From a virus: a DNA stretch of 54,908 nt. Both the position numbers and the translations under genes were made by a program. The DNA is taken from IMG/VR virus record IMGVR_UViG_3300021197_001056, positions 1 through 54,908 of that record; one strand, written 5' to 3'. Each line of letters opens with the position of its first letter. Within the stretch, counting starts at the first letter, position 1. The notes under the pieces are model-generated. The model made no database searches. It worked only from the letters and a program-made list of their open reading frames with translations, and was not told the DNA's origin. Below are positions 20,801 to 48,705 of this stretch, one piece after another.

Positions 20801-21774
20801 GTAAATGGTTTACAAACATAGTCGGTAAACCATCGGTTAATGAAGATGAATTAGATTTAAGTGGTCTTCCAACTTCTAACTTTTCTATACAAGGTATCGG
20901 TATAGCATCTAGTATTGAGTCAAGTCCAATACCAGGTTGTATGAGTCCATGTGCTAGTAATTATAATCCTTTAGCTACCACTGATAACGGTAGTTGCGTT
21001 GATAATAATGTCTATGATTGTATGGATCCTTTGTATCAAAACTATAACCCTAATGCAACTATAGATCAAACGAGCTGTGAAGATGTAACTAGCAAATGCT
21101 CAGATCTACATGTCTTAGGTTGTAATGTAGCTTTAAATCTTGCCGGTACTAGAGCAGATGGTGTTAGCCAGTATACTTTTACAACAGCTATAAACGATAA
21201 TCCTCTTGTTACTAAAGATAATGGTGACTGTATAGAGCAAATTGATGGATGTACGAACCCATGGTCTTCTAATTACAATGCGTCTGCTAATTTTGATGAT
21301 GGTACGTGTGTAGAGGTTATTTATGGATGTAAAGATCCAGATGCTTCTAACTACAACCCAGACGCTCAACACAACGCGGTTAATGTTAATGCAAATGGTG
21401 ATCTTTATGGCAATCCTTGCGTATTCGTAGGTTGTATGTTAGAAAATTCTACTAATTACATAGGTATACAGGAGGACGGAACATATCTTTCTTGGGATAG
21501 CTTTACTAGTAGTAAAATAGTACAACACTTTAGTAGCGCTTCAAACCAGTATGTTGATTGGCCTGCTTTTTATAAACCTTGTGATTACGCTGTGGGTGTA
21601 GAATATGATAGTGGTGAAGTGCAATTCCTTGATGAAGCTGACCATAGTTGCTGTGATCTTATTGTTGAAGGTTGTATGGATCCAACAGCTGTAAATTATA
21701 ATCCTGGTGCAAATGTTGATGATGGTACTTGTTCATACTCAGGTCCAACAAATATATTTATTGATGAAATTTAA
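14857..21774 (+). CDS. Giant tail nozzle protein with C-terminal GCTDP-type cysteine repeats
   Basis: The 2305-residue protein begins with FQAGKMNKDLDERLLPQG then YRDAMNIEV (about 9-36), the recognisable opening of podovirus tail-tube B / nozzle proteins (T7 gp12-like). Such proteins form a hexameric beta-propeller nozzle below the adaptor. The protein is far longer than T7 gp12 (about 800 residues), with large beta-rich insertions. From residue 2027 to 2296 come about seven cysteine modules, four or five in the canonical form GC-x-DP-x-A-x-NYNP-x-A-x-x-DDGTC, then a short end. These repeats would project from the tail tip. A virion role is strongly suggested by context; the function of the repeats is open. 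Confidence 0.78.
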   Translation: MARLTKTFQAGKMNKDLDERLLPQGQYRDAMNIEVTTSDGSDVGVVQSIRGNKKLPSYNEVSDPVAATVNHNGVTSKVVGSVSDDKTNSCYFFIASPEFGFRPMGEEPKVFKDMIVKYDSVSKKIHPVLTDILRYETPNVFLIEEGQGFDFISFNDENKENIKDNIRPGMVAKAFDAVTSTTFDFNFALDYPTSQEMGNGLVVIEVDEYANRIYFDRVIPNTPAEDSSSITNDKISHWIFTHPEPVLQFQEFLSSNETAYVQGFESRIENKQITGINIVDNLLLWTDGLSEPKKVNIDRLTNGLGKNIPRFSTHSKNLARDPYSDNPKQLKTLSQIEDPGNYLGLGVIDTITRDHITVIKKAPRNAVKLIMSNSSTSIDGTATTANCTHDFVNVYPGSEAQGVAISENFVEGSELVFTAMNNAYASVRASVTSVNNNVYTLDVHSVNNNITYSQVGEYVSWHVSLIQTDPMFSDKIGRFSYRYKYYDNECSTFAPWSELAFLPSKYDYTPIKGYNLGMTNNLRKLRVVDFVNEYVSRPDDVKEIDILFKDTTSPNVYVVKTIKRGKDFEWHNMLGTSTGFDGSGAKGVLDITTEMIHRTLESSQILRAWDNVPITAKAQEVTGNRLVYANYEQGYDVINDIVVDSQVITTHHPGIDNEDLSLSPFKSLKSMRKYKLGVVFGDKYGRETPVIGVGGSYNEEFEVDPETLEPNSSSENYVHESFTVKKDKCARLNKIKAKLKWGGGNSNAEPEPWMDYYKFYIKETSNEYYNLVMDRWYNNDDGTIWISFSSADRNKVDEDTYLILKKAHDSQTPVLNDDAKYKVLSISNEAPDYIKKVDKIIGVTPLDMTANVNLSELLSAQIVGESWLGSGIGAIASGARSFEGVGWARIKGVSAGATPSEVLYSEWRRVSNINAQSYSVSVTEPWGLRADMETDYGFGDGASVDYFVEVKDSVIENKPEFDGKFFVKIHKDSTLEQQVTIQSGSDITYSAELIADVGYIYTGGNFGFLQNPADQGAIYRGDYSTIATPVPNNGVNDYTDYSWGYTGFSEPLNNSETGVPGMYAQAHYGCDLITSSNTNMYQYGLIRDYWEDYWTGSTYGVDTANRWFIDHAGFTKPNFQDPSAEWEHAYNQGIFHTNIEEIGTLIVLTAFAGVLNSNFQIDLGASGNIAAGIIPQNKNTIMFSHVGTGYGTPDAEFKQKMTTIGQRFRFKADPGMQGDPIIYEVWAVIHNNTRSSYKGVGTFNGTPEGVGPYCQGCQEEGTVGSSWACKRKSFVIFFKQTNNDYQGLDTSVWDPRSAVKHDGSSSLKIELVSAADTSQYITTVNNIDNAIFETEPKEDVGLDLYYEASDAIPLNLNTSTIESYIPLFSKVKAIQSPSNTANMYAGHSYNKVPADGMNVSSIARDVVGIGDGGIEAIPIPLRLGDKLEFERPDGTINCAYITDYWQPIRKSSNSNTNKSRYEKSTVYEDVEFHLTAGPQEERKLIIPLTTLGGVDQSRIVGDIDLGFNPDSNVNYIWKLEGPAAISLMGLPSDSHFITGKDNNINSVSFNGIALFSNWVLPESIVIHNNTLDENGNLTPFSSFFLTSESSSAQVFKAKITRITGYYRLDDKVYDTTTVLPWFNCYSFGNGLESNRIKDDYNAPFINNGFKVSTTLDSYGKEFRSNGLIHSGIYNSTSGVNMLNQFNMAEPITKDVNPSYGPIQVLKSRDTNLVTFCEDKVLQILANKDALFNADGSSNLVSTNTVLGNTKAFVGDYGISNNPESLAVDGYRMYFVDKHRNKVLRLSQDGLTVISDLGMKSWFRDNLLNSTTILGTFDTVKGNYNISNYRNNWTVSFNERNKGWTSFKSFVADNGLSINADYLTSKDGDLYLHHVINNGDGPASGEFYDEKQNASVTMIFNDQPSIIKSFKAISYEGTQARVKEFVTNIAVDVNGNFISSDGLNNEVSDGNYYNLGNKNGWFVDLMETDVEEIEVIDFQNKEGKWFTNIVGKPSVNEDELDLSGLPTSNFSIQGIGIASSIESSPIPGCMSPCASNYNPLATTDNGSCVDNNVYDCMDPLYQNYNPNATIDQTSCEDVTSKCSDLHVLGCNVALNLAGTRADGVSQYTFTTAINDNPLVTKDNGDCIEQIDGCTNPWSSNYNASANFDDGTCVEVIYGCKDPDASNYNPDAQHNAVNVNANGDLYGNPCVFVGCMLENSTNYIGIQEDGTYLSWDSFTSSKIVQHFSSASNQYVDWPAFYKPCDYAVGVEYDSGEVQFLDEADHSCCDLIVEGCMDPTAVNYNPGANVDDGTCSYSGPTNIFIDEI
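20935..21753 (+). repeat. Cysteine repeat array inside the nozzle gene
   Basis: About seven protein-level modules each start with Gly/Asp-Cys and end with Ser/Thr/Asp-Cys. The clearest lie near 20935, 21013, 21247, 21325 and 21670. DNA identity between copies is low, so these are old or selected-apart repeats. The same module type recurs in the exported protein at 40638-42884. Confidence 0.8.
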
Positions 21775-34400: not shown

Positions 34401-37400
34401 AGGCGAAAGTAAAAAACTTACTGCGAAAGAATTTTTAGAACTAGATAAACAAAAGTTAGATTTTCTAGAAAAAATGTTCGAAGATATTAAAAAGCATTTA
34501 AAGAAAAATCCTAACGACGCTTGGTTTTTTGCTAGGTGGGTTACTGACGCTAGTAGTAATCAAAGCTCTATATTTAGAACGTCAGCTCCAGTAATTGGAT
34601 TCTACTATAAAGATGGTAAACTACACTACAATGTTAAGTTAAGAGAAGAACATAGTACACCTCAAAATAATATTGGTACAATGTTCTTAGGCGCTGCGAT
34701 AAACGGTGAGTCAATATCGGATGTCGGCAAAGTGGCTAGAGCTTCTTTTGTTCAACTTTCTCTTACTCATGAACATGATGATATGCTTAAAGCCATTAAA
34801 GATAAGGATGGTAATATTATAAGGCAAAGCTTGGAGGCTAATATGCCTGATGAATATTGGAGCGAAGTTGTACCAAATATTCTTAATGGTAACTTGGATT
34901 GGTTAGATCTTGGTATGGCTGCTATGATTAGATATGCTAGAGCTGGGGTTAACTTAAATGAGTATATCGTACCTGGTTTAGGTAAGACTATAACGGAGTA
35001 TTTTGGGGTTGGAGTTGATATGTCTAAGTTAAACCCTAAGCAAGTTGAAGCTTTAGTTGAGATTCAAAATGATTTAATATCAGATATATTAACAGGTAAG
35101 ATAACTAGAAAAGTAGCTTCAGATCATATAGAAGCTTCAAGAAAATTAGATTTCAAGTCTAGTAAAGATGATATTAAAGCTTTAAAGAATTACAAGGTAG
35201 CTAAAGATAAGATAAGCGCTAGCATGAACGGTAAAACTAGAGGTATGTCTACGTTTGACTTTGACGAAACTCTTATTATAGGTGGTGATAATTTTGTGAT
35301 TGCTACCGATCCAGATACTGGACACGAAGTTAAAATAAGCTCTGAGCAATGGCCGGTTCAAGGACCTGAATTAGCCGCAGCAGGGTATAAGTTTGATTTC
35401 TCTGATTTTGCTAATGTGCGTGGTGGAAAGGAAGGACCATTACTTCAAAAGATGAAGAATCAAATAGAGAAGTATGGACCTAACAACGTATTTATATTAA
35501 CAGCTAGACAGCAAGCTTCGGCTGTGCCTATCCATAGATGGTTAAAGTCTAAAGGTATAAATATACCCTTGAGAAATATAACAGGTCTAGGTAAGAGCGA
35601 AGGATCTGCTAAAGCAGATTGGATGTTACAAAAGTATGCTGAAGGATATAACGACATGTACTTTGTTGATGATGCAATGTCTAACGTTAAAGCTGTTAAA
35701 GATGTACTAGATCAATTAGATATTAAATCTAAGGTTGTACAAGCTAAGATTAATTTTAGTGAAAGTGGTAGTGATACGTTTAACGAAATGTTAGATAGAA
35801 ATACTGGCGTACCTAAAGAGAAGATATTTTCTGATGCTCAAGCTAGATTAAGAGGTAAGAAAGCTGGAGGATTTAGATTTTTTGTTCCACCATCTGCTGA
35901 GGATTTTAAAGGTTTACTATACAACTTTTTAGGTAAAGGCAAACAAGGAGACGCTGACATGGCTTTCTTTAAAGAGCATTTGTTAGATCCATTTGCTAAA
36001 GGAATTCGTGATATAAATTCCACTAAGCAAAGAACATCTGAAGAGTATAAGGAACTTAGAAAGAAGATGCCTGAAGTAGCTAAGCGTTTAAATAAAAAAA
36101 TACCTAACTCTGACTACAGTGTTGGTGACGCTATGAGGGTGTATCTCTGGAGTAATAATGGAATAGAAATACCAGGTATCTCAGAGCAAGAGGTTTCATT
36201 TTTATCTGATCACATCAATGGAGATGGTAAACTAAAATCTTTTGCAGACGCTTTAGGTAAAATATCTAGATCTAAAAACGGTTATGTTAAGCCTGGTGAA
36301 AATTGGGTTGTTGGTAGTATAGCCTCTGATCTACATGAACAGACTAGCGAGGTGAATAGAGCTGAGTTATTATCTGAGTGGAAAGCTAATAGAGATATTA
36401 TATTCTCTCCTGAGAATATGAATAAAATAGAAGCCGTTTACGGTACAGACTTTAGAGATGCTCTAGAGAACATGCTAGAGCGTATGGAGACTGGTAGTAA
36501 CAGGACTACTGGTAAAAAAGATAAAGTTGTTAATAGTTTTATGGACTGGATAAATGGATCTGTAGGTGCTGTTATGTTCTTCAATACTAGGTCAGCAGTA
36601 CTACAAACTTTATCCATGGTTAACTTTATAAACTGGGGAGATAATAATATATTTCAAGCTGGTAAGGCTTTTGCTAACCAACCTCAATATTGGAAAGACT
36701 TTCTAACTCTGTTCAACTCAGATATGTTAAAGCAACGTAGAGCTGGTATGGCTATTGATGTTAACTTAGCTGAACTTAGTAACGCTGTTTCCAAGGCTAG
36801 TGGTAAAGAAAAAGCTAAAGCAGCTATTAGGTATTTACTTCAAATTGGTTTTACACCTACACAGATTGCGGATAGTTTTGCTATAGCAGCTGGTGGTTCT
36901 ACGTTTTATAGAAATAGAACAAACAAGTATATTAAAGAGGGATTGAGTCAAAAGGAAGCTGAAACTAAAGCTTTTGATGACTTTCAAGAGATAGCAGAGG
37001 AAACACAACAATCTTCTAGGCCTGATCTCATATCTCAACAACAGGCTGGTGCATTAGGTAGATTAGTGTTAGCATGGCAAAATACTCCAATGCAGTATAC
37101 TAGATTAACTAAGAAAGCAATATCAGATTTAGTTAACGGTAGAGGTGACTGGAAGCAAAACGTTTCAAGAATACTATACTACGGTGCAGCGCAAAATATT
37201 ATATTCGGTAGTTTGCAAACTGGCTTAGCTTTCTTAATGTTCGGTGGAGATGAAGATGAAGAGAAGACTAAAACTAAGACAACTCGTGTAGCTAATGGAG
37301 CTTTAGATACCTTACTAAGAGGTACGGGTGTTTATGGTGCTATGGCTTCTACTCTTAAGAACGTGATTATGAAATACGCTGACGAGAGAAAAAAGCCTTA

Positions 37401-38100
37401 CGGTAAAAGAGAGTTATCTAAAGTAGGCATCGAGGCTATGCAGTTATCTCCACCTATTGGTAGTAAAATTAGAAAGATTATGTCAGCTATCTATAGCTAT
37501 GAGTATAATTTGGGTGTACCAGAAAAAATAGGATGGAATATAAATAACCCTATACTAAATGTTATTAGTAGTGCTGTTGAAGCCGTAACTAACGTCCCAC
37601 TAGATAGAGGTGTTAGGAAAGCTCAAAATTTAGACGAAGCTATAAATGGTAATCACGAAATGTGGAAACGTGTAGCTTTGTTCTTAGGTTGGGATAAGTG
37701 GGGTTTAAGTATTAAAAATGAAGAGTTAGAAGAAGCAAAAGCAGAGGTTAAAGAAGAGAGAGCTGAAAAGAAAAAGAAAGAGAATGAAGCTAAGAAAGAA
37801 GAAAAGAAGAGGTTAAAAGAAGAAGAAAACGAAAAAGAAAAGAAAGAGAAGGAAGCTCAAGGTATCAAAGAGGTAAGATGTTCTGGTATTAAATCAAATG
37901 GTAAAAGATGTAGTATAAAAATAGAGACTAAAGAAAAAAAAGTTTTATGTGGTTATCATAAAACATATAAAGAAGGTGAAGCTAGTGATAGAGACGGTGA
38001 TGGGGTTAAAGAATATAGATGTACTGGCACAACTGGATCAGGTAAAAGGTGTAAGAATAGAACAGAAAGAACAAACAAGAAATGTTACGCACACCAGTAA
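28459..38100 (+). CDS. Giant multidomain virion (ejection) protein with zincin, HAD-like and zinc-knuckle motifs
   Basis: The 3213-residue protein runs, in order: an acidic low-complexity head; coiled coils (about 250-560); Gly/Ala-rich hydrophobic stretches (about 690-790 and 934-955); HEFLH at 1217-1221 after VDVGS, as in zinc peptidases; and a HAD-fold region with DFDET (2267-2271), ILTAR (Thr2348), a Lys in GSAKADW and FVDDAMSN (2402-2409). A helical region with hydrophobic parts lies at about 2695-2930. The end is a Lys/Glu-rich stretch followed by two copies of C-x9-C-x(10-12)-C-x2-H (from Cys3141 and Cys3188). Size and position match the giant proteins that podoviruses eject with their DNA. 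I saw no RNA-polymerase signature. The HAD and HExxH motifs are clear; the biochemical roles are inference. Confidence 0.75.
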   Translation: MLDIIKEYQWTNPETGLKELIDVNVNSIEGKKWLENEGVNAILTSADTPETGNQSGDATVDASATSTTPASNQEVVQPQNNQQENTGSASVDTSLDSQNLTEVVKPTTKEMDESTRLMTTYKNEDENSEDFYNRITPQVTTKKQSVGGGHGAAYDMEVTNTTINGITKTDNSLGGSASYLDINGNEATDDQIKTFEELFLLNQIHSEANEIRSTKAGDYSELSDSEIINQQGGKWDIYNKEQEVSDKVQSEMRTNKLDSSFDYDYQSHLEWEQQQYVDGLTKHSAAENAKLNTQYNKERQAVANEILPVIQDQIQQKYSGQLKEIETGLVDTYNKRFDVYQKSTLASYEKLAKKAKTQKEIDKINSDYQRDLKAWWDGEQPKLQDEYSRLVNETYGDAMKKDLNSALNNNEQIVALDESWQSEFEEAQNNIYENYKNNYKPESKHFSEEDFERISRDLDKAGFDVANSSEKKYMLQKYLSNLEKVQGGTPEDIEEIKNEFYAHYYDKLESQPIVDASGKVVIDEKTGEPKTELTQFVMKDIATATLNNAQELYDKEIKKYKEIRYVDKRLRDEPEIVITPEQQLFKDNPGLEQAMRYSRQILDNPESAHPAGAVNFFRGMGSLEGHKYIPFAGGLIDLGNSLEIKALADKAAAGETTPMEDSALQMYLLKNQSDAQVRKLSTAYNAGAMFAESAPFMAEMVITSGAFNTTKQVVQQGVKKALTKSIDKVAGTQVAKSLRFKKGTGKMLFAPKNNAYKVVDNVGDAIGGILATVAQTTANPQRYLAGAIDNMTPEMAWAYTNNADDLISKLDLDIAVKGEGDSFPKAFAKSFGTAWSEYATERMGWLVPGLGKAGLKKLGVTQSPEWLKRASLGRYLRKNGLHKTEAIKHFIQTRSGWNGVLGEMSEEFMNIPLSNLINGHDLTEGLDWPSIKEMGISISAGGLAFGGGTMLYNKAAGNKAPGYYIDLQRFENEKAAIAHLKKMKKNGTLNENTDIEITNDFQAYDNVSKVLEEAGLSNDIIKTGGSGVNAGHIAAAEVEFMNELSQEDRNELESIDGEIKKLEADKGDVNQRDNTDHKEVHAINENIKKLNRRRESILEPVKAKVKQFKTDIYEKKLNNLRKILGEDKYDEVVTEANSQDEVNAMLEQAVAESNGLTKQGDQWVNNKGEVVDISEAVKSGQNKHGGFYVDENTGKKKIFINREASLGESGNVDVGSHEFLHYFLSETLHHHPELKLAFGKALQSHVFNIDPRQIRDTGFRNRLIGYQKRGDVVSMEETLNILSDAMANGTYQHNETALTKLGDIIRRTMSSFGVRVNFGNGRDVFNFIKDYNKEFESGKLSKGMKATMKKGVKVSGQIQDLAESEQKRLKTDVKALNKGIRKVIPDWQDLSVQEAVDARMVFSESATKKTPKESPLEAINKLLPKNIKTNQDYQDFTQDQREFPKLYSELMQPGGVINNYIRSRQTSKEEGDKMLDEAMMRLINFKPENKRKDGSPVGIEGFGEFIFANTRFAKLVAKKKLFEESEELKRKVSTDTEQAKQIADTPTPTDQAPAKGDKAPVRTNVLKVSGVESKAEDIKKMVDIKEGEDIDFKGVTSKYSGKAAEMIFGVPASKITDPKKNLTYAKKIVDGIPEPSEAGNIQKFYTSKDNVRKLLRILKNSNVTSEQAYVNKIGESIDVARGVTGRSIGLKGVPLKYFFEPVLTEKGTRARSKGLTSQTPLWRLKPKFRGNVSNEVVAEVQRDFGITPTGQLNKYDRGIGQLLKGIANYQADQTVLSAAQRNLEEARSKADVEGKKAIGEQIANITAAQSKLAFSENFSEEQVKAAVMNQNAVVSTSKLLKIAGLPNYLADRAAKAIIKRSDGKEVKHVDYNYIVAREAGKEARSDKTIGEEVTRITQALHKMDPVYSTLFKIGMSNGWGKSFFGVNSKFDELSKIPKEELEALPPFLTRFMYHEKELLNPKRVVEENGEIYYIVGNLKKKGESKKLTAKEFLELDKQKLDFLEKMFEDIKKHLKKNPNDAWFFARWVTDASSNQSSIFRTSAPVIGFYYKDGKLHYNVKLREEHSTPQNNIGTMFLGAAINGESISDVGKVARASFVQLSLTHEHDDMLKAIKDKDGNIIRQSLEANMPDEYWSEVVPNILNGNLDWLDLGMAAMIRYARAGVNLNEYIVPGLGKTITEYFGVGVDMSKLNPKQVEALVEIQNDLISDILTGKITRKVASDHIEASRKLDFKSSKDDIKALKNYKVAKDKISASMNGKTRGMSTFDFDETLIIGGDNFVIATDPDTGHEVKISSEQWPVQGPELAAAGYKFDFSDFANVRGGKEGPLLQKMKNQIEKYGPNNVFILTARQQASAVPIHRWLKSKGINIPLRNITGLGKSEGSAKADWMLQKYAEGYNDMYFVDDAMSNVKAVKDVLDQLDIKSKVVQAKINFSESGSDTFNEMLDRNTGVPKEKIFSDAQARLRGKKAGGFRFFVPPSAEDFKGLLYNFLGKGKQGDADMAFFKEHLLDPFAKGIRDINSTKQRTSEEYKELRKKMPEVAKRLNKKIPNSDYSVGDAMRVYLWSNNGIEIPGISEQEVSFLSDHINGDGKLKSFADALGKISRSKNGYVKPGENWVVGSIASDLHEQTSEVNRAELLSEWKANRDIIFSPENMNKIEAVYGTDFRDALENMLERMETGSNRTTGKKDKVVNSFMDWINGSVGAVMFFNTRSAVLQTLSMVNFINWGDNNIFQAGKAFANQPQYWKDFLTLFNSDMLKQRRAGMAIDVNLAELSNAVSKASGKEKAKAAIRYLLQIGFTPTQIADSFAIAAGGSTFYRNRTNKYIKEGLSQKEAETKAFDDFQEIAEETQQSSRPDLISQQQAGALGRLVLAWQNTPMQYTRLTKKAISDLVNGRGDWKQNVSRILYYGAAQNIIFGSLQTGLAFLMFGGDEDEEKTKTKTTRVANGALDTLLRGTGVYGAMASTLKNVIMKYADERKKPYGKRELSKVGIEAMQLSPPIGSKIRKIMSAIYSYEYNLGVPEKIGWNINNPILNVISSAVEAVTNVPLDRGVRKAQNLDEAINGNHEMWKRVALFLGWDKWGLSIKNEELEEAKAEVKEERAEKKKKENEAKKEEKKRLKEEENEKEKKEKEAQGIKEVRCSGIKSNGKRCSIKIETKEKKVLCGYHKTYKEGEASDRDGDGVKEYRCTGTTGSGKRCKNRTERTNKKCYAHQ

Positions 38101-38499: not shown

Positions 38500-39687
38500 A
38501 TGCTAGGGTTAGGTGGTTCATTAACATCTGGAGTTCCAGAGTCTAAGTATAGTATTGATTTTGATGGCAGTAACGATTACGTAGAGTTTCGTGACTGCGG
38601 TGCGGTTAAATCTATGTCGATGTGGTTTAATCCAGATACGAGTTTTAATAGTAGTAGTAGTGTTAAAAGGCTTTGTGGGTTTAGAGGTACGCTTGCAGAG
38701 AGTACAGACTATTTTGGCATATCATTAGGTTCTTCTACTGGTAATTTGACAGGAGAGGTTTTATGCGTTATGCCAGATGGTGCTTCAAGGACTGGAACTA
38801 CTAGAAATTTTACCGCTGGAGAGTGGTACCACTTAGTTATCTCTTGGAATGCTAGTAATAGTTACTTTGATATATACATAAACGGAGTTGCGGAAACTGA
38901 TTTAGACCATTCAACTCATACTTTAGCAGATTGGACTAACTTTAGATTAGCAAGAGTAGGTCAAAACAGCTCTCAATTTGCTGGTAAAATAACTGAGGTT
39001 GCTTTGTGGGATGTTACCTTGGATTCACAAGCTGTTACAGCTTTATATAATAATGGTTCGCCCGTAAACCCAACTATAGATAGAGGTGATTACGATAATA
39101 GTTCTAGTCTTTTAAGATACTTTAAGTGTGGTAATGGTGTGCTTGATGATATTAGTAATTCTCAATCAACAAGCTTTGAACAAGGAATTATAGTTGATCA
39201 GTCTGGGACTGTTAGTATAGACGCTGATCAGTCTGTAGCTATTAATACTACTAATTGGGAGACTGTACAAACTGGATCTACACCAGCTAATTTAAACGGG
39301 TTAACACCTGTTGGGGATGGTGTTATTACATTTGACGGTACTCAAACAGGGTTTTGTGGCGTTAGACCTAAATCTGGAGCTTGGAACAAAACAGTTGCAA
39401 CAGAGTTTTACAGAGTAGAAATGCACTATACTAGATCTGCTGGAGCAGTTCAGTTTAAAGCTTCTGGTGATGAAAGCACTGAGTCTGGATTATCTTTATC
39501 GAATGGAGCTGATGTATCGGTACAACAGATTGGTATAGGTTATATTAGAGCTAATCATACTAACTGGCAACTTACTTTTAGTTCAGAATTTGTTGGGACT
39601 ATTACTAAAGTTATTTTGCAAAAGATAACTCCAAACACTTCTGGAATAGTAAAAAACGGAGCACTTAAATCTTCATCAACACCTTAA
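38500..39687 (+). CDS. LamG / concanavalin-like domain protein (probable receptor-binding protein)
   Basis: The 395-residue protein has a LamG-type jelly roll at residues 15-190: YSIDFDGSNDYVEF, then MSMWFNP, GEWYHLVISWN, FDIYINGV and ITEVALWDVTLD, ending in ALYNNGSPVNP. All are standard strands of the LamG_3 fold. LamG domains bind carbohydrate or protein ligands, and phages use them in fibres and adsorption proteins. The remaining 200 residues are beta-rich and unassigned. There is no signal peptide, so a virion location is more likely than host export. Location between small virion and holin genes fits a host-recognition module. Confidence 0.75.
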   Translation: MLGLGGSLTSGVPESKYSIDFDGSNDYVEFRDCGAVKSMSMWFNPDTSFNSSSSVKRLCGFRGTLAESTDYFGISLGSSTGNLTGEVLCVMPDGASRTGTTRNFTAGEWYHLVISWNASNSYFDIYINGVAETDLDHSTHTLADWTNFRLARVGQNSSQFAGKITEVALWDVTLDSQAVTALYNNGSPVNPTIDRGDYDNSSSLLRYFKCGNGVLDDISNSQSTSFEQGIIVDQSGTVSIDADQSVAINTTNWETVQTGSTPANLNGLTPVGDGVITFDGTQTGFCGVRPKSGAWNKTVATEFYRVEMHYTRSAGAVQFKASGDESTESGLSLSNGADVSVQQIGIGYIRANHTNWQLTFSSEFVGTITKVILQKITPNTSGIVKNGALKSSSTP

Positions 39688-39688
39688 T

Positions 39689-39925
39689 ATGAGAAAATAC
39701 GTTATAATAGATAAAGAGGATGTAGACGATATTAATTTTTCTTACGTATTAGAGAATGGTAAAGATTCTTTAGTATACAATATTGATGGCACTAAAACTT
39801 TTGTGAAGTTTATTGGTGATACTCCATCTTTCTTAGAAGGAAAGGCTACTCTTACAAATGAAGAAATATTAACTATACTCAATAACCCTTCTAACGGTTG
39901 GGTAGAACAGAATGGAAATATTTAA
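39689..39925 (+). CDS. Small hypothetical protein
   Basis: The 78-residue acidic protein begins MRKYVIIDKEDVDDINFSYV and contains TLTNEEILTILNNPSNGWVEQ. It starts one base after the LamG gene stop and overlaps the next gene by 14 bases. Proteins of this size after fibre genes sometimes assist fibre assembly, but nothing specific shows that here. Confidence 0.55.
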   Translation: MRKYVIIDKEDVDDINFSYVLENGKDSLVYNIDGTKTFVKFIGDTPSFLEGKATLTNEEILTILNNPSNGWVEQNGNI

Positions 39926-40124
39926 GAACGATAACAATTGGAATGAGAAAGCTATAGTAGGATTTATAGCTTTTGCTATAATGTGTCTTATAATGATAGC
40001 TGACCTCGTTACAGGCTGGGTAGGAAGTGATTTAGTAATAAACGAATACGTCTACAACTCATTTGTATGGGTTGTTCTTGGTTCATTTGGAATCTCAGGC
40101 GTAGAAAAATTTGCAAAAAAATAA
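39912..40124 (+). CDS. Two-helix membrane protein, second holin candidate
   Basis: The 70-residue protein has two hydrophobic helices (about 15-36 and 47-63), separated by a short polar turn, and a Lys-rich C-terminus (EKFAKK). That is the size and shape of class II holins. It overlaps the preceding gene by 14 bases. Together with the GTA-type holin at 1296-1688 the phage would have two candidates; one may be an antiholin or act at a different step. It could also be a small unrelated membrane protein. Confidence 0.6.
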   Translation: MEIFKNDNNWNEKAIVGFIAFAIMCLIMIADLVTGWVGSDLVINEYVYNSFVWVVLGSFGISGVEKFAKK

Positions 40125-40637: not shown

Positions 40638-42884
40638 ATGAGAAAAATACTTTTACTATTACTAATTGTGTCTGGTAGCTTAAACGCTCAAGACACTTTA
40701 TATGACTGCTTAGGATCTGATGTTACAGAAGTATCAGGTTGGTTGGGAGACGGATGGTGCGATGATGGAGCGTATACTTATAACGGTGTGCCAGTTTACT
40801 TCGACTGTGAAGAATTTAATTATGATGAAGGGGATTGTGAAGCGCCTATAGATACAGTACCTGGTTGTACTGATGTATTAGCTTTAAACTTCGTTCCTGA
40901 AGCAAACTTTAACGACGGTAGTTGTGAGTATCCTATATTCGGTTGCATCGACCCTGAAGCACCGAACTATAACCCTTGGGCAGAAGCAGATGATGGCAGC
41001 TGTGTTGGAATAAGTTGTTCTGACGGAGAGGCCAAAATTATTTTACAGCTAACACTAGATCAGTACCCGGGTGAGACTGGTTGGATTATAACTGGCCTAT
41101 CAAATGGTCAAGCTGTAGATAACGTAGTAGCTGGTGAGTACACATACGAGCAGGCTAATCAAACTATCGTATACGATATATGTATACCAGAAACTGGAGT
41201 TGAAATAATACTTAGCGACATATATGGAGATGGTATGGCTGGTTCACAGTGGGGTGGAACAGATGGTAATATAGTTGTACTTGGTGATGCGGAGCCTTGT
41301 GGTAGTTTAGATACTTTATGGGCTTTAGATTCTGCTGACTTTGGTAATGCAGCTTACTCTGGTCCTATATGGTTAGAGCAATGTGATGTTCCCTTAGTTG
41401 AGGGTTGCACAAATAATACTTATGTAGAGTTTAGCCCACAGGCTAACCTTGACGATGGTAGTTGTGAGACGTTGCATGCTTTAGGATGTGTAAACCCTAG
41501 TGCTTTCAACTATGATTCACTTGCTACATTGAATGCTATAATACCTACTTGTAACTACACTTTAATTATTGAAGATGATGGTGGTGACGGTTGGGGTGAT
41601 TGCTATATAGGTGTTGTGCAAGAAGATTCTATTCTTGGTACTTATACAATGGGACCTGGTCCTTACTCTCAAGAGTTTAACTTAGTATTAGAAACAGATA
41701 AACCAGTTAAGGTTTATTACTTTGAAATAGCTAACCCACAAACTCCTCCCGCTGAGGTTGCGTTTCAAACAATGCACAACTCGTTTAGATTAATAAATTC
41801 AGCTGGTGATATTACCCTACAAGGTGGTACGTATCCTTTTGCTGACAATGGTGGCGGGGCTTTACAATCTTATTCTCCTCCTTTCTGGCATATATATCAT
41901 GCACTACCTTTCTGTGGTGATTACTGTATACCTAAAGTGTATGGTTGTTTAGATGAGTCAGCTTTAAACTATAACGACTTAGCTAATACAGATGACGGTA
42001 GTTGTGTTGATGTAATTGTAGGATGTACAAATGAGTTAGCTTTCAACTATGATTCACTTGCTAACGTTGACAGTGGTGGATGTGTAGCTATAACTGTTGG
42101 GTGTATGGATGACTTTGCTTGGAACTACAACGCTTTAGCAAACGTGGCTGACGAGTCTTGTATATACTTTGGTTGTATGGATCCGGTTGCTGACAACTAC
42201 GATCCGCAAGCAAATGTAGACAACGGTAGTTGTTTTATAACTATATTAGGCTGTACAGATCCAGATGCGTTTAATTATAATGATCAGGCTAACACAGATG
42301 ACTTCTCTTGTATCCCAGTTGTTTATGGATGTCTTGATCCATTAGCATTCAATTGGGACTCTCTAGCTAACACAGATAACAATTCATGTATTGAGGTTGT
42401 AGAAGGATGTATGGATGGTGAAGCTTTTAATTATGATGTGTTCGCTAACACTGAGGATGGTGGATGTTTGTATGACGCTGGTTGTGTAGGTGAACCTGGT
42501 GATCCTTACTGGTTAAATGATTCTTGTTATGCTTGGGTTATTACTGTTGATCCATATTGTTGTAACAACGAGTGGGATCAGAAATGCCAACAACTATATT
42601 GGAGGTGTTATGAAGATAATGACATGGATGTTAGAGATTTAATGAGGTCTAACAGTGTTGCTATATGGCCTGTACCCGCTAAAGACATACTTAACATATT
42701 AACAAAGGAACCTGTAGATATTAAAGTTCATGATCTAACTGGTAAACTTGTTATACATGTTAAAGAAAAGTATACCAGCGAAGGGTTAAACCAACTAAAC
42801 GTATCTAACCTATCTAGTGGGGTATACAACTTTAGTATAACGTGTAATAATAATACTATAACTAGACAAGTTATTAAGCAATGA
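40638..42884 (+). CDS. Exported protein with cysteine repeats and a type IX secretion sorting domain
   Basis: The 748-residue protein reads like a host secreted protein. Residues 1-17 form a Sec signal peptide (KILLLLLIVSGSLNA then Q). Residues 24-70 resemble a Lin12/Notch repeat (GDGWCDDG and a FNYDEGDC end). About eleven modules GC-x-[DN]-x-x-A-x-NY-x-x-x-A-x-x-DDGSC follow, with two larger beta insertions. A Cys cluster DPYCCNNEWDQKC then leads to a C-terminal domain (about 672-748): AIWPVPAKDILNI, IKVHDLTGKLV, LNVSNLSSGVYNFSI and VIKQ. That is the type A sorting domain that sends proteins through T9SS to the Bacteroidota cell surface. The stop overlaps the next start (ATGA). It is probably surface-exposed in the infected host. 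Confidence 0.85.
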   Translation: MRKILLLLLIVSGSLNAQDTLYDCLGSDVTEVSGWLGDGWCDDGAYTYNGVPVYFDCEEFNYDEGDCEAPIDTVPGCTDVLALNFVPEANFNDGSCEYPIFGCIDPEAPNYNPWAEADDGSCVGISCSDGEAKIILQLTLDQYPGETGWIITGLSNGQAVDNVVAGEYTYEQANQTIVYDICIPETGVEIILSDIYGDGMAGSQWGGTDGNIVVLGDAEPCGSLDTLWALDSADFGNAAYSGPIWLEQCDVPLVEGCTNNTYVEFSPQANLDDGSCETLHALGCVNPSAFNYDSLATLNAIIPTCNYTLIIEDDGGDGWGDCYIGVVQEDSILGTYTMGPGPYSQEFNLVLETDKPVKVYYFEIANPQTPPAEVAFQTMHNSFRLINSAGDITLQGGTYPFADNGGGALQSYSPPFWHIYHALPFCGDYCIPKVYGCLDESALNYNDLANTDDGSCVDVIVGCTNELAFNYDSLANVDSGGCVAITVGCMDDFAWNYNALANVADESCIYFGCMDPVADNYDPQANVDNGSCFITILGCTDPDAFNYNDQANTDDFSCIPVVYGCLDPLAFNWDSLANTDNNSCIEVVEGCMDGEAFNYDVFANTEDGGCLYDAGCVGEPGDPYWLNDSCYAWVITVDPYCCNNEWDQKCQQLYWRCYEDNDMDVRDLMRSNSVAIWPVPAKDILNILTKEPVDIKVHDLTGKLVIHVKEKYTSEGLNQLNVSNLSSGVYNFSITCNNNTITRQVIKQ
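40861..42475 (+). repeat. Eleven-module GCTDP-type cysteine repeat array
   Basis: Modules of about 35-40 codons each begin Gly-Cys and end Cys, with a central N-[YF]-x-x-x-A motif. Most modules end in a DDGSC-like tail. Two are separated by beta-rich insertions (about 41010-41400 and 41550-41940). The run 41940-42475 is seven modules in direct succession. Confidence 0.85.
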
Positions 42885-43963
42885 TAGAAAAAAATAAAGC
42901 TTTACTGTATCAATTGTTAAGTGCAGTAGGATTAGTAGTAGTATTTAGTTTTTTATTTATAGCTTTGACTCAAAGCTGTAATGCTCAAGGTAGAATACTA
43001 AAATACTCAACGTTTTATACCGCTATAAACGGTGGTACATCATTATCAGACGATCAAGTATGGTCGATAACATCAGGTCAGCTAGAAGAGGATGTCATTG
43101 AAACTCCATTTGATTATACCTTATCTATAGGTTTAAGAAAAATTAAGAGATTCGGATACGAGAACAGGGCAAATACATTTTATAATGGTACTGAAAATTC
43201 ATACTCAGACGCAGCGACATTAGGTCGGTTAGATGGTTTCGAATATTTATTTGAAACTGATCTTGTGAGGAGGTTAGGCGTTCATTATGTAAACCATAAT
43301 CACTTTGTAAGATATGTTGCAGATAAGTGGGTAGCTAAAGTAGCGTACTTAGAAGATGGCTTTGCTGATATTAAATACTTTGAGGCATCTCAGAGATACA
43401 GAAAACAAATTGGTGAGGGTAAGTTATCTTTTAATATAGGTACTGTTCAGAGATTAGCTGAGCCTTACGGGTTTGATCCGCTAGCTGATTGGGTGTTAGA
43501 TAATGGTACACTACATTACACGTACTTAGCATTACAAGAAGGTTACAACATAACACTTGACGGAATGTATTACTCACCTGACGGCACATTAGTGGCTGAT
43601 AACCAAGCTGTGTGGGAGGAAGTTGTTATACCTGGAGTTATAGACGACTACGTTGAGAGCCAAAGAAGCAATTTGTCTAGTATCGTTGAATACTCTACAG
43701 TTATAGGTTTAGACTACTACCACTTTACAAAAGACTTTTGGTTTCACACTTGGGGAAACTTACTACCTTATCATTTAGATACAGATAATAAATACTCTTA
43801 CCACAAACTTAATAATGGACAGTGGGTTGATTACTCAGCTGGTTTAATATTTGGTTACAGATTTAACAAGAGCTTAGGATGTTTTGTTGAGGGGAAGTAT
43901 AATAAGTATTGGAATAGAAAATGGCACAACTTTAGTGTTGGAATTAATTACGTAATATTTTAG
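42881..43963 (+). CDS. Outer-membrane beta-barrel-like exported protein
   Basis: The 360-residue protein has a signal sequence with a long n-region (hydrophobic core about 12-30, then SCNAQG). The SC lies near the cut site but is a poor lipobox. The mature part alternates polar and aromatic residues in many strands, and the end GVNYVIF-like (GINYVIF) with a terminal Phe matches the BAM recognition signal of outer-membrane proteins. It is coupled by ATGA to the T9SS protein gene, so the two are probably made together; the barrel might anchor or display its partner, or block phage receptors. No enzymatic motif is visible. Membrane topology is inferred from pattern only. Confidence 0.65.
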   Translation: MIEKNKALLYQLLSAVGLVVVFSFLFIALTQSCNAQGRILKYSTFYTAINGGTSLSDDQVWSITSGQLEEDVIETPFDYTLSIGLRKIKRFGYENRANTFYNGTENSYSDAATLGRLDGFEYLFETDLVRRLGVHYVNHNHFVRYVADKWVAKVAYLEDGFADIKYFEASQRYRKQIGEGKLSFNIGTVQRLAEPYGFDPLADWVLDNGTLHYTYLALQEGYNITLDGMYYSPDGTLVADNQAVWEEVVIPGVIDDYVESQRSNLSSIVEYSTVIGLDYYHFTKDFWFHTWGNLLPYHLDTDNKYSYHKLNNGQWVDYSAGLIFGYRFNKSLGCFVEGKYNKYWNRKWHNFSVGINYVIF

Positions 43964-43965
43964 AC

Positions 43966-44334
43966 ATGTATAAACAAAAAGGAATTGATTTTGGTGTTGG
44001 TACTGGAAGCTCACCATTAAACAAAAACGGTGACCCAAAGAAAAAGAAAAGCTTTGACTTAAAAGGTTATGTTAAAGGAGAGCAAGGTTACATCCCTGAT
44101 TACAAAGGTAAACCTACTAGGCAAGCAGCTAATGAAAGTACACTTTTAAATCCTAAGAGTTCTGACGAACGTCTTTCTGACCAAATGGATACAAAAGAAA
44201 CAGTTAGATTAAGAGGTGAGCAAATAGCAAGAGATAAAGCTGGTAAGAAAACTTCAAAAGCAGAAGCTGCTCATTTAAAATCCTATTTAGATAAGGATAA
44301 AAAAGTAAGACCGAATCGAAAAGATAGATACTAA
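43966..44334 (+). CDS. Hydrophilic basic protein, unknown
   Basis: The 122-residue protein is rich in Lys, Gly, Asp and Ser and has no hydrophobic segment. An internal KGYVKGEQGYIPDYKGKPT stretch and a basic tail (KKVRPNRKDRY) are the main features, and much of it is likely disordered. It starts two bases after the barrel gene and its stop overlaps the next start by one base (TAATG). No family recognised. Confidence 0.55.
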   Translation: MYKQKGIDFGVGTGSSPLNKNGDPKKKKSFDLKGYVKGEQGYIPDYKGKPTRQAANESTLLNPKSSDERLSDQMDTKETVRLRGEQIARDKAGKKTSKAEAAHLKSYLDKDKKVRPNRKDRY

Positions 44335-44618
44335 TGACAAAAGAATTAAACGAAGATACATCAGTACAGGTAAGCATAAAAACTTTAGCTGGTATAGGTG
44401 TTGTTATGGCAGCTGTAATTAGTGGTTGGTTCGTACTACAAGGAGATATAGCAGAGGCTAAGAAATTACCTTTACCTCCAGACCCTGAAATAACACGCAT
44501 GGAGTATGACATGAAAGATCAACTGATAAGGCAAACTATAATGTCGACACAAGAAGACGTTACTGATATTAAAAATCAGATGATAAGAATGGAAGATAAG
44601 ATAGACAAACTAAAATAG
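44334..44618 (+). CDS. Single-pass membrane protein with C-terminal coiled coil
   Basis: The 94-residue protein has one hydrophobic helix (about 17-36), a Pro-rich hinge (LPLPPDPE) and a C-terminal coiled coil (about 55-94). This layout resembles an inner-membrane spanin or another periplasmic lysis aid, and it lies among exported and lysis genes. No outer-membrane spanin partner with a clear lipobox is seen beside it, so the spanin idea remains a guess. Confidence 0.5.
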   Translation: MTKELNEDTSVQVSIKTLAGIGVVMAAVISGWFVLQGDIAEAKKLPLPPDPEITRMEYDMKDQLIRQTIMSTQEDVTDIKNQMIRMEDKIDKLK

Positions 44619-44623
44619 TATGT

Positions 44624-44986
44624 ATGATAAAATTACTTACGTTGTTAGCTTTTATAACGCTAGATGCATACGCACAGTATGTACCTGAGCGTAATGCTAA
44701 AAATGTAAGTAGAGTTTTATCCGCAGCCTCTGAATTTGCTTTAGCGCAAGACAAGCAACTACATATGGGAGCTTGTTACTTTTTAAGTTCTATCACCTCA
44801 GCTGTGGTGTATAATAAGACTAGAAATAAAAAAAAGGCTAGCGTATATGGGTTTGGTATAGCTATGTTAGCCGGTATCGCAAAAGAAGTATACGACATTA
44901 ACCACGGTCACTCAGATATAAATGATATACTAGCAAATACTATAGGATCTAGTTTAGGTGTTGTAACAATTAGAATAACATTATGA
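44624..44986 (+). CDS. Exported YfiM/DUF2279-like membrane protein
   Basis: The 120-residue protein has a signal peptide (1-17, ending DAYA then Q) and two or three hydrophobic helices. The motif DKQLHMGACYFLSS (43-56) and, 40 residues on, KEVYDINHGHSDINDILAN (87-105) match the pattern of YfiM-like small envelope proteins, where DK-x-x-H and KE-x-x-D are conserved. The molecular role of that family is unclear. The stop overlaps the next gene by four bases. In the phage it may alter the envelope or assist lysis. Confidence 0.6.
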   Translation: MIKLLTLLAFITLDAYAQYVPERNAKNVSRVLSAASEFALAQDKQLHMGACYFLSSITSAVVYNKTRNKKKASVYGFGIAMLAGIAKEVYDINHGHSDINDILANTIGSSLGVVTIRITL

Positions 44987-45321
44987 GAAAATTAATTTTA
45001 CTATTATCAATATTAACTACAACATGTTTTGCACAAGATTTTCCTAGTGGTTTAGTAGTTGTAGAGTTCAACGCTAGCTTTAACAAATCTAACGAGGTAC
45101 AGTGGTTATCTAAACTATCCGACTGTAAAGTTCAAAGAGTGGATATATCAGCAGATTCTAGATGGTCAAGTGAATACAAAATAGTAGTAGTGCCTACGTT
45201 AGTTGTATTTAATAACAACGAAGAAGCAAAAAGATTTCAAGCAAACATCATGATGACAATGGAGGCTACTCGTAGAGAGGTTCAGGAGTCAATTGATGAA
45301 ATTACAATGGAAGCATTTTAA
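44983..45321 (+). CDS. Exported thioredoxin-fold protein lacking the CxxC pair
   Basis: The 112-residue protein has a signal peptide (cut after CFA at about 17). The mature part reads as a shortened thioredoxin: VVVEFNASFNKSNEVQ (25-40) at the place of the VDFWA-CGPC strand and helix, VDISAD as the next strand, and VVVPTLVVFNNN (68-79) with the cis-Pro equivalent at Pro71. The active-site cysteines are absent (Asn-Ala-Ser-Phe-Asn instead), so disulfide exchange is not expected. One Cys remains at 48. It could act as a periplasmic chaperone or binding protein. It overlaps the preceding gene by ATGA. Confidence 0.65.
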   Translation: MRKLILLLSILTTTCFAQDFPSGLVVVEFNASFNKSNEVQWLSKLSDCKVQRVDISADSRWSSEYKIVVVPTLVVFNNNEEAKRFQANIMMTMEATRREVQESIDEITMEAF

Positions 45322-45334
45322 ATTAAATTAAATT

Positions 45335-45592
45335 ATGACAAATAAAAGATTAAACGAAGTAAAAGTAATTGTGCTATGTATTGTCATAGCATTTTTTCTT
45401 ATGTTTAGCGTAAAAGCTGAAGCACAAACAAATCACGTAGTAGATACTGTTAAGTATCAATACTTTGATTTAAAAGAAAGACCTATAAGAAATAGTTTCT
45501 TTGCAGAAAAAAATATGGGTTGGAGGATGTGGATGTTGGCTGATGATGGTATAAGAAAAAGAAAAGTCTGGATAGACACTATAAAAAAATAA
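45335..45592 (+). CDS. Small exported or membrane-anchored protein
   Basis: The 85-residue protein has an N-terminal hydrophobic helix (about 10-26, then VKAEAQ, a good signal peptidase I site). A 55-residue basic, aromatic mature part follows (YQYFDLKERPIRNSF, then MGWRMWMLADDG). It ends the run of five exported proteins and abuts the tail-fibre gene with no gap. No family recognised. Confidence 0.55.
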   Translation: MTNKRLNEVKVIVLCIVIAFFLMFSVKAEAQTNHVVDTVKYQYFDLKERPIRNSFFAEKNMGWRMWMLADDGIRKRKVWIDTIKK

Positions 45593-47884: not shown

Positions 47885-48247
47885 ATGAGTAAATTTACAA
47901 ATATTTCAACCGCTACCACAACAACAATACTACAAGCTAGCGATCATGCTTTAAGTAGTGCTAACAGTTTAGTGGGTTCAAAGTTCTTTAGTGTAAATAA
48001 AATATCAATAACTAACTATAGCCAGAGAGATGCTAAGGTAGTTTTATATCAACATGGTCAAACTGTTAATAGCGTTACATATGATGATTATTACATTATA
48101 GGTGATGCAAACTTGGACATTGGTATAAAAATACCGGGTGGAGTTACTTTAGTTTTAGACGACCCTTTTACTATAAATTTAATTACTCATATATTAAAAA
48201 TAACAAATTCAGGAACCGATCCTGCTTTAACAATAAGAATAGATTAA
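47885..48247 (+). CDS. Small beta-rich virion protein candidate
   Basis: The 120-residue Ser/Thr/Ile-rich protein alternates strands (ISITNYSQRDAKVVLYQHG, IPGGVTLVLDDPF) in the manner of a single jelly roll, a frequent form for phage decoration or fibre-cap proteins. The protein at 49388-49759 has a similar build (Leu-x-Pro-Gly or Gly-Val strands near the end), so they may be distant relatives. The stop overlaps the next start (TAATG). Confidence 0.55.
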   Translation: MSKFTNISTATTTTILQASDHALSSANSLVGSKFFSVNKISITNYSQRDAKVVLYQHGQTVNSVTYDDYYIIGDANLDIGIKIPGGVTLVLDDPFTINLITHILKITNSGTDPALTIRID

Positions 48248-48705
48248 TGAGACTAAGCAAAAATTTTACGTTATCAGAAATAACAAAAAGTAACACAGCT
48301 AAAAGACTAGGTATAAATAATGCGCCGGATAAAGAACACCTTAAAAATATGCAAATTCTTATTAGAGATCTTATACAGCCTATGCGTGACGATCTTGGTC
48401 CTATCAGGATTACTAGTGGTTACCGTAACCCAACACTCAATCGCACCATTGGTGGATCTACTAAAAGCCAACACTGTAAAGGTCAGGCAGTGGATATACA
48501 ATTCTGGGAGAAGGGTGAAATGTGTAATAAAAAAATCTATGACTGGGTTCTCAAACAAGGGATAGAGTTTGATCAAATGATCAACGAATTTGATTTTGCT
48601 TGGATACATATATCACTTAGACCAGATGATAAAAACCGTAAGGTAGTTTTAGAGGCATACAAAGATAATGACGGAGATACAGCTTACAAGGTAGCTGACG
48701 TTTAA
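48247..48705 (+). CDS. M15-family peptidase, probable endolysin
   Basis: The 152-residue protein has the M15 (D-Ala-D-Ala carboxypeptidase / L-Ala-D-Glu endopeptidase) zinc site: SGYRNPTLN (57-65), SQH with His76, AVDIQ with Asp83, and WIHISL with His121. These are the His/Asp/His ligands in the family order, and a Glu near 114 can serve as the base. It would cut peptide bridges of peptidoglycan. No signal peptide is present, so a holin must let it reach the wall; candidates lie at 1296-1688 and 39912-40124. Length matches phage M15 endolysins. It could also be virion-borne. Confidence 0.85.
   Translation: MRLSKNFTLSEITKSNTAKRLGINNAPDKEHLKNMQILIRDLIQPMRDDLGPIRITSGYRNPTLNRTIGGSTKSQHCKGQAVDIQFWEKGEMCNKKIYDWVLKQGIEFDQMINEFDFAWIHISLRPDDKNRKVVLEAYKDNDGDTAYKVADV

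Follow-up and report, generated by a model that had tools for sequence, protein, structure and literature searches.

A candidate type IX secretion cargo gene and its neighbouring gene for a predicted outer-membrane barrel in a probable crAss-like phage of marine Flavobacteriia

Can a bacteriophage send a protein of its own through the type IX secretion system (T9SS) of its host? This question is raised by a gene in the viral record IMGVR_UViG_3300021197_001056. The window, that is the whole stretch of DNA analysed here, comprises 54,908 bases, and the gene product, called P0001 in the following, had been described in the initial annotation as a phage-encoded T9SS cargo protein with a Sec signal peptide, a Notch-like domain, eleven cysteine modules and a C-terminal sorting domain. 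The reading frame translates into the 748 residues claimed; the positions of this and all other features are given in Table 1.

The same record carries genes for TerL and portal, a crAss-type muzzle protein (PF25731, E 2.5e-16) and, also among the hallmark genes, an M15 endolysin and a holin. Contamination by a host contig was considered and rejected, because phage hallmarks flank the cargo gene on both sides and the synteny of the cassette recurs across dozens of viral contigs. With TerL, portal and crAss-type muzzle on the record and homologues in 55 other viral loci, the description as a phage-encoded cargo is supported. In the annotated phage collection, the TerL relatives with a named host belong exclusively to Flavobacteriia (Flavobacterium, Cellulophaga, Tenacibaculum and Maribacter), which fits the earlier label of a flavophage; the closest terminase relative there (65%) is an uncultured spring-water phage. 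SprA was found in both MAGs searched whole into which related phage contigs had been binned, and only there. We read the record as that of a probable crAss-like phage infecting marine Flavobacteriia. No T9SS components encoded by the phage were found, and the machinery must therefore come from the host.

The signal peptide of P0001 (MRKILLLLLIVSGSLNA, followed by QDT after the predicted cut) has n, h and c regions. It was called by a heuristic together with an alignment of homologues and is evident, as annotated, with Gln18 invariant in 39 of 39 full-length homologues. In Bacteroidota, glutamine is the exposed N-terminus of most signal peptidase I substrates (PMC5837995). The following segment (residues 18–77) resembles a Lin12/Notch repeat by eye, but a Pfam Notch match was not obtained even at E<=1, and the domain name given initially is thus weakly founded. 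The number of cysteine modules, in contrast, is borne out: a direct count yields eleven GC-x(about 18)-C modules with the glycines at residues 76, 102, 256, 283, 436, 462, 488, 512, 538, 564 and 590. Two beta-rich segments (about 125–250 and 305–425) are interleaved with them. No Pfam domain was found for the module array, the family profile gave no convincing match to PDB sequences for the structure of the modules, and Pfam did not match an enzymatic or membrane-active domain anywhere in the cargo. The AlphaFold model of P0001 (39 homologues) is modest overall, with a mean pLDDT of 69 and a pTM of 0.34.

Table 1. Features of the cargo gene and its surroundings, with positions in the window
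Feature	Position	Strand	Basis
P0001, candidate phage T9SS cargo gene, 748 aa	40638..42884	+	ORF; homologues in 55 viral loci
Predicted Sec signal peptide, residues 1-17, cut before Gln18 (Bacteroidota Q-rule)	40638..40688	+	sequence; Q18 invariant 39/39
Lin12/Notch-repeat-like Cys segment (WLGDGWCDD...CEEFNYDEGDC), residues 18-77	40689..40868	+	by eye
Eleven GC..C modules (residues 76-122, 256-305, 436-610)	40863..42473	+	sequence; model strands; same modules in Flavobacteriales proteins
Helical Cys cap (CYAWV..D.YCCNNEWD..C), residues 613-662	42474..42623	+	near-invariant columns; helices in model
T9SS type A C-terminal sorting domain, residues 676-748	42663..42881	+	HMMs, fold, conservation
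g29, signal peptide and predicted outer-membrane beta-barrel, 360 aa	42881..43963	+	model, fold matches, linkage to cargo
g26, small two-TM protein, holin-like (hydrophobic profile only), conserved upstream neighbour	39912..40124	+	sequence, synteny
g31, one TM segment then charged coiled coil, predicted inner-membrane anchored	44334..44618	+	sequences, synteny
g32, Q-rule signal peptide, weak DUF2279/VanZ-like match	44624..44986	+	domain search, heuristic
g33, Q-rule signal peptide, thioredoxin-like without CxxC motif	44983..45321	+	domain search, synteny
g34, Q-rule signal peptide, 85 aa	45335..45592	+	heuristic
g38, M15 peptidase endolysin	48247..48705	+	PF08291 E 4.4e-18; phrog_894 endolysin E 5.5e-37
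Muzzle (tail-tip) C-terminus with cargo-type Cys modules	20929..21741	+	39% and 30% identity to P0001 modules; PF25731

At the extreme C-terminus, the type A sorting domain was confirmed, as two profiles score above their curated cut-offs: Por_Secre_tail (PF18962) matches residues 676–748 with E 2.1e-12 and 47.6 bits (gathering score 27), and TIGR04183 (NCBIfam) matches with E 3.2e-11 and 43 bits (cut-off 23) and reaches the last model position. Searched against PDB sequences, the family profile matches the solved T9SS sorting domains 8glk (NucA), 8glj and RgpB 5hfs/7pq4. In the AlphaFold model, seven strands are formed at residues 674–747 with pLDDT mostly between 72 and 87, and Foldseek relates the modelled domain to RemA (8gl6_D, TMt 0.78), NucA (8glk_D, 0.80) and mirolase (8qb1, 0.69). 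A chance HMM match is rejected by the curated cut-offs, the PDB profile matches and these fold matches. Gly702, located in the loop that connects strands 3 and 4, and Gly728 are both invariant in 39 full-length homologues, of which 36 also keep the C-terminal Lys. A Gly-to-Arg change at this loop glycine blocks the secretion of RgpB, for which the C-terminal residues constitute the other functional motif; sorting domains are, furthermore, not always interchangeable among species (PMC11285876). As modelled, the C-terminus of P0001 forms an Ig-like sorting domain of seven strands, in which both the conserved loop glycine and the C-terminal motif are present.

A scan of viral contigs yielded 55 loci with cargo relatives, 34–93% identical over the best segment. 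Homologues, which were to be looked for in other flavophages as an initial check, are seen among viral contigs but not among cultured phages: neither the cargo nor the adjacent g29 has a homologue in the annotated phage collection, and both are absent from seven cultured relatives searched whole. TIGR04183 was matched in 35 of the 39 full-length cargo homologues. Four homologues (L044:9602-11806, L048:9593-11986, L049:9662-11812 and L054:9923-11980) end in an alternative short tail, ITDxLGRP...NKLLxYIYSDGSVxRK, in which the sorting-domain core DxLGR is retained and which could serve as a minimal signal of the T9SS type. Tails similar to it (e.g. MLGQEV..TPLIYLYNDASVEKK) also end module proteins of Flavobacteriales hosts in L291 and L295.

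Measured against the two closest complete homologues (L004 and L005), dN/dS is 0.07–0.09 for the whole protein and 0.07–0.15 for the sorting domain, figures which are only rough, many of the comparisons having nearly saturated synonymous sites. By these estimates the cargo family is under purifying selection. Between the closest sequences, most of the body shows higher conservation than the sorting domain, a point against the explanation favoured below. Distant members replace the Notch-like N-terminal segment, with a MAM domain in L039 and a CBM48-like one in L055; varying N-terminal domains of this kind are expected for what would be surface ligand binders.

Directly downstream of the cargo gene lies g29, with a 4-nt overlap between its ATG and the stop codon of the cargo. 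The model of its product is barrel-like and all-strand (mean pLDDT 71), and Phe is the last residue in 43 of 50 homologues. Having a signal peptide, a barrel and an aromatic C-terminus, g29 is predicted to form an outer-membrane beta-barrel of 12–14 strands. The nearest folds are the porins NanC (VIA Z 13.7) and KdgM (VIA Z 13.6), with autotransporter and OmpT-type barrels close behind; since these are nearly as close as the porins, only the barrel fold is claimed. Deriving a function from the closest folds was rejected, as generic 12-strand porins, autotransporter and OmpT-type barrels share the fold alone. The assignment of g29 as a PorP/SprF protein was also rejected, since neither Pfam nor NCBIfam gave a match to that family at E<=1. 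In 84,980 prokaryote genomes g29 had four matches, on MAG contigs including one Flavobacteriales and one Sphingobacteriales MAG, and because of this near absence it is taken as a phage gene. A leader peptide ending in APKKCCSQ is common to cargo and g29 genes of different phages (L041:9890, L047:7508, L265:2710-3756, L269:11803), suggesting that signal peptides are swapped; this leader also holds a possible lipobox (LVSC/LVAC/IISC).

The linkage of the two genes was assessed in 78 loci on 77 contigs (L059-L136) picked via g29 alone. A sorting-domain cargo is present within about 300 bp of g29 in 72 of the 78 and within 2.7 kb in four more (76/78), in a sample that leans to near relatives and includes near-duplicates; the remaining two loci begin at a contig end. 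Among 46 records picked by g29 or cargo, 42 have TIGR04183 above the cut-off, with one match each and two in a single record. Records picked by terminase give a different picture: of 23 such records, 8 have g29 and 1 has a sorting domain. Of these loci as read, one has the pair, in one the cargo is cut by the contig end, and several are cut before the site. Two of them, L268 and L270, possess a divergent g29 (31–33%) and no cargo. A universal linkage of cargo and barrel is therefore not upheld, and the pair is not obligatory, since divergent g29 relatives occur without cargo. It is typical of one clade, and g29, being more widespread than the cargo, is probably the older element.

Other neighbours are conserved as well. 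The cargo is accompanied across loci by g29, g31 and g33 and usually by g26 and g38. When Q-rule signal peptides were scored by a simple heuristic, 5 of 45 window proteins were positive, all of them within 40638–45592, compared with about 1% in shuffles. The g31 protein looks like an inner-membrane spanin (possibly), is kept in nearly all loci and matches no family; g33 is found near the Cys-rich cargo throughout. Upstream of the cassette, a 3213-aa protein (28459–38100) conserved in related phages has a weak LPD14 match (large polyvalent protein, E 3e-4) and is probably an ejected virion protein. Just upstream, a 395-aa protein (38500–39687) contains a LamG/concanavalin-type lectin domain (PF13385, E 1e-14) and is a possible fibre or surface lectin.

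The cysteine modules are not confined to the cargo. Those of the muzzles of this phage and of two relatives (L152, L140) number 3–9 and form the end of the protein. The muzzles of L138, L139 and L141, read to the end of the frame, are without cargo-type modules, so that shared muzzle modules were not upheld as proof of a receptor decoy. Matches to the cargo were also found in 87 of 119 genomes from the order to which the Flavobacteriales MAG belongs; nearly all of them fall in the modules, over short stretches with at most 66% identity. Several of the host proteins read combine a signal peptide, many modules and a type A sorting domain. Since T9SS proteins of Flavobacteriales use the same modules, these appear to be a host surface currency taken up by the phage. 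Very long GC..C-module ORFs, with up to 62 counted modules (L296), were noted in Flavobacteriales genomes (L290-L305), many of which are 1–2 Mb in size.

How could these parts work together? Sec would export P0001 and signal peptidase I would cut before Gln18, the host T9SS translocon would recognise the C-terminal Ig-like domain, and the cysteine-module body would end on the surface of the infected cell or be shed from there. Export by the T9SS, which we infer from the signals and the modelled fold, is highly probable. The best explanation as a whole, and in our judgement a probable one, is that a secreted modular adhesin-like protein is made during infection and sent through the host T9SS. 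Cargo and g29 are probably co-produced, given the overlapping stop and start codons, and g29 would most likely act beside the cargo in the outer membrane. As to its purpose, the host-mimicking protein would most likely cover or alter surface structures that serve the phage and its competitors as receptors. A lasting position of P0001 at the surface next to g29, where it would mask or alter receptors, is put forward tentatively; we infer this role from the adhesin-like build, the swapped N-terminal domains (MAM, CBM48-like) and the precedent of phage T5 Llp, a small lipoprotein which brings about superinfection exclusion by acting on FhuA (PMC9586334). What P0001 would share with Llp is the proposed role, in which a protein of the phage reaches the envelope of the host and blocks receptors there (PMC9586334), whereas sequence and export route are unrelated. 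The position of the cargo gene among late-looking genes for virion and lysis counts against an exclusion role, as exclusion proteins are usually early. Also to be weighed against the favoured explanation are the four homologues with another tail, the lack of both genes in cultured relatives, the limits to exchanging sorting domains among species and the finding of SprA in two MAGs only. The roles suggested in the initial annotation, superinfection exclusion, clumping or lysogen-free host modification, stand as proposals.

The same gene neighbourhood could be read as a programme for lysis or envelope disruption, formed by cargo, g29, g31, g32-g34 and the M15 endolysin, in which the cargo would destabilise the surface instead of masking receptors. 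Endolysin and holin-type genes do adjoin the cassette, g31 looks like a membrane-anchored coiled coil, and the gene order suggests late expression. However, the cargo is without an enzymatic or membrane-active domain, its modules are adhesin-like and its N-terminal domains variable, and the divergent L268 and L270 retain g29, g31 and g33 without any cargo; we regard this explanation as unlikely. An adhesin could also act as an extracellular public good or attachment factor, binding cells to particles or to one another (clumping), so that the phage would reach new hosts more easily, and leaving receptors unblocked. The adhesin-type build, the MAM and CBM-like N-termini of relatives and the host proteins of the same make would suit such a function, from which a host-lysing phage would have little time to benefit, and it seems improbable.

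Were P0001 instead a fibre or decoration protein of the virion, its signal-like termini would be left over from the host surface protein from which it was captured. The modules shared with the muzzle of this phage and two relatives, as well as the LamG-type lectin gene nearby, point in this direction. Yet nearly all homologues retain both signal peptide and sorting domain, the functional residues are invariant and selection is purifying, disulfide-rich modules suit an extracytoplasmic site, and export would make it difficult for the protein to join a particle assembled in the cytoplasm, all of which makes a virion component very unlikely. There is, finally, the chance, which we judge to be small, that an abundant phage cargo merely fills the translocon and thereby lowers the display of host adhesins. 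The type A sorting domain resembles that of host substrates, and SprB and RemA, gliding adhesins exported by the T9SS, have been proposed as phage receptors in Cellulophaga (PMC13288928), which counts for such a competition; a conserved body of 670 residues under strong purifying selection would not be needed for it.

The statement in the initial annotation that no phage use of the T9SS had been described is wrong, as reports date from 2019 (PMC6949934) and 2020 (PMC7468147); in our literature search, phage T9SS cargo was described only in these two. Cryophage has variable genes with type A sorting domains which were described as hijacking the host system (Nat Commun 2020, PMC7468147). The likeness to P0001 lies in the type A sorting domain of phage genes and the proposed hijack of host secretion. 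The Cryophage genes vary between phage variants. In this phage from cryoconite they encode an endoglucanase, a GH39 and a PA14-domain protein (PMC7468147), whereas P0001 belongs to an adhesin-like family with cysteine modules that occurs in marine crAss-like phages and is coupled to a phage gene for a predicted outer-membrane barrel. In crAss-like contigs, T9SS sorting-domain ORFs were noted as a passing observation (Viruses 2019, PMC6949934). These, in crAss-BACON cluster 2, likewise lie near structural genes of crAss-like phages, but have BACON domains and stem from gut lineages, and a paired barrel gene is not described in the part of that report considered here (PMC6949934).

Among bacterial counterparts, the Flavobacteriales surface proteins share with P0001 the GC[TM]DPxAxNYNP..DDGSC modules (<=66% identity in the aligned stretch), the signal peptide and the type A sorting domain. 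They differ in often having tens of modules and, in the examples read, in being without the Cys cap; the phage-type middle segments of the cargo are matched almost only in the phage contig. SprB and SprF of Bacteroidota offer a comparable arrangement, in which the genes for a T9SS cargo and for an outer-membrane barrel are neighbours. The sorting domain of SprB-type cargo is of type B, and SprF belongs to the PorP/SprF family. The P0001 cargo, unlike SprB, is of type A, and its partner g29 is, unlike SprF, without a PorP/SprF match in Pfam or NCBIfam. The literature found does not describe the cargo family itself, its wide conservation in marine crAss-like phages, the coupling to a barrel gene within an export cassette or the host-like modules.

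Few cases are known in which a virus decorates the infected cell by means of a dedicated bacterial machine for protein secretion. The use of the T9SS suggested here does not come from a stray gene: the cargo family is conserved and evolves under purifying selection, and many marine phages with Flavobacteria-type hosts have it coupled to a barrel gene. It is conceivable, if still speculative, that a cargo adhesin with host-mimicking modules and a phage-specific barrel anchoring or aiding it constitute a surface-display unit, by which a large uncultured group of marine crAss-like phages would re-coat the infected cell via the host T9SS. If display proves true, it would provide a handle on receptor management, exclusion and cell contact by crAss-like and related phages and, in addition, a tool for surface display in Bacteroidota.
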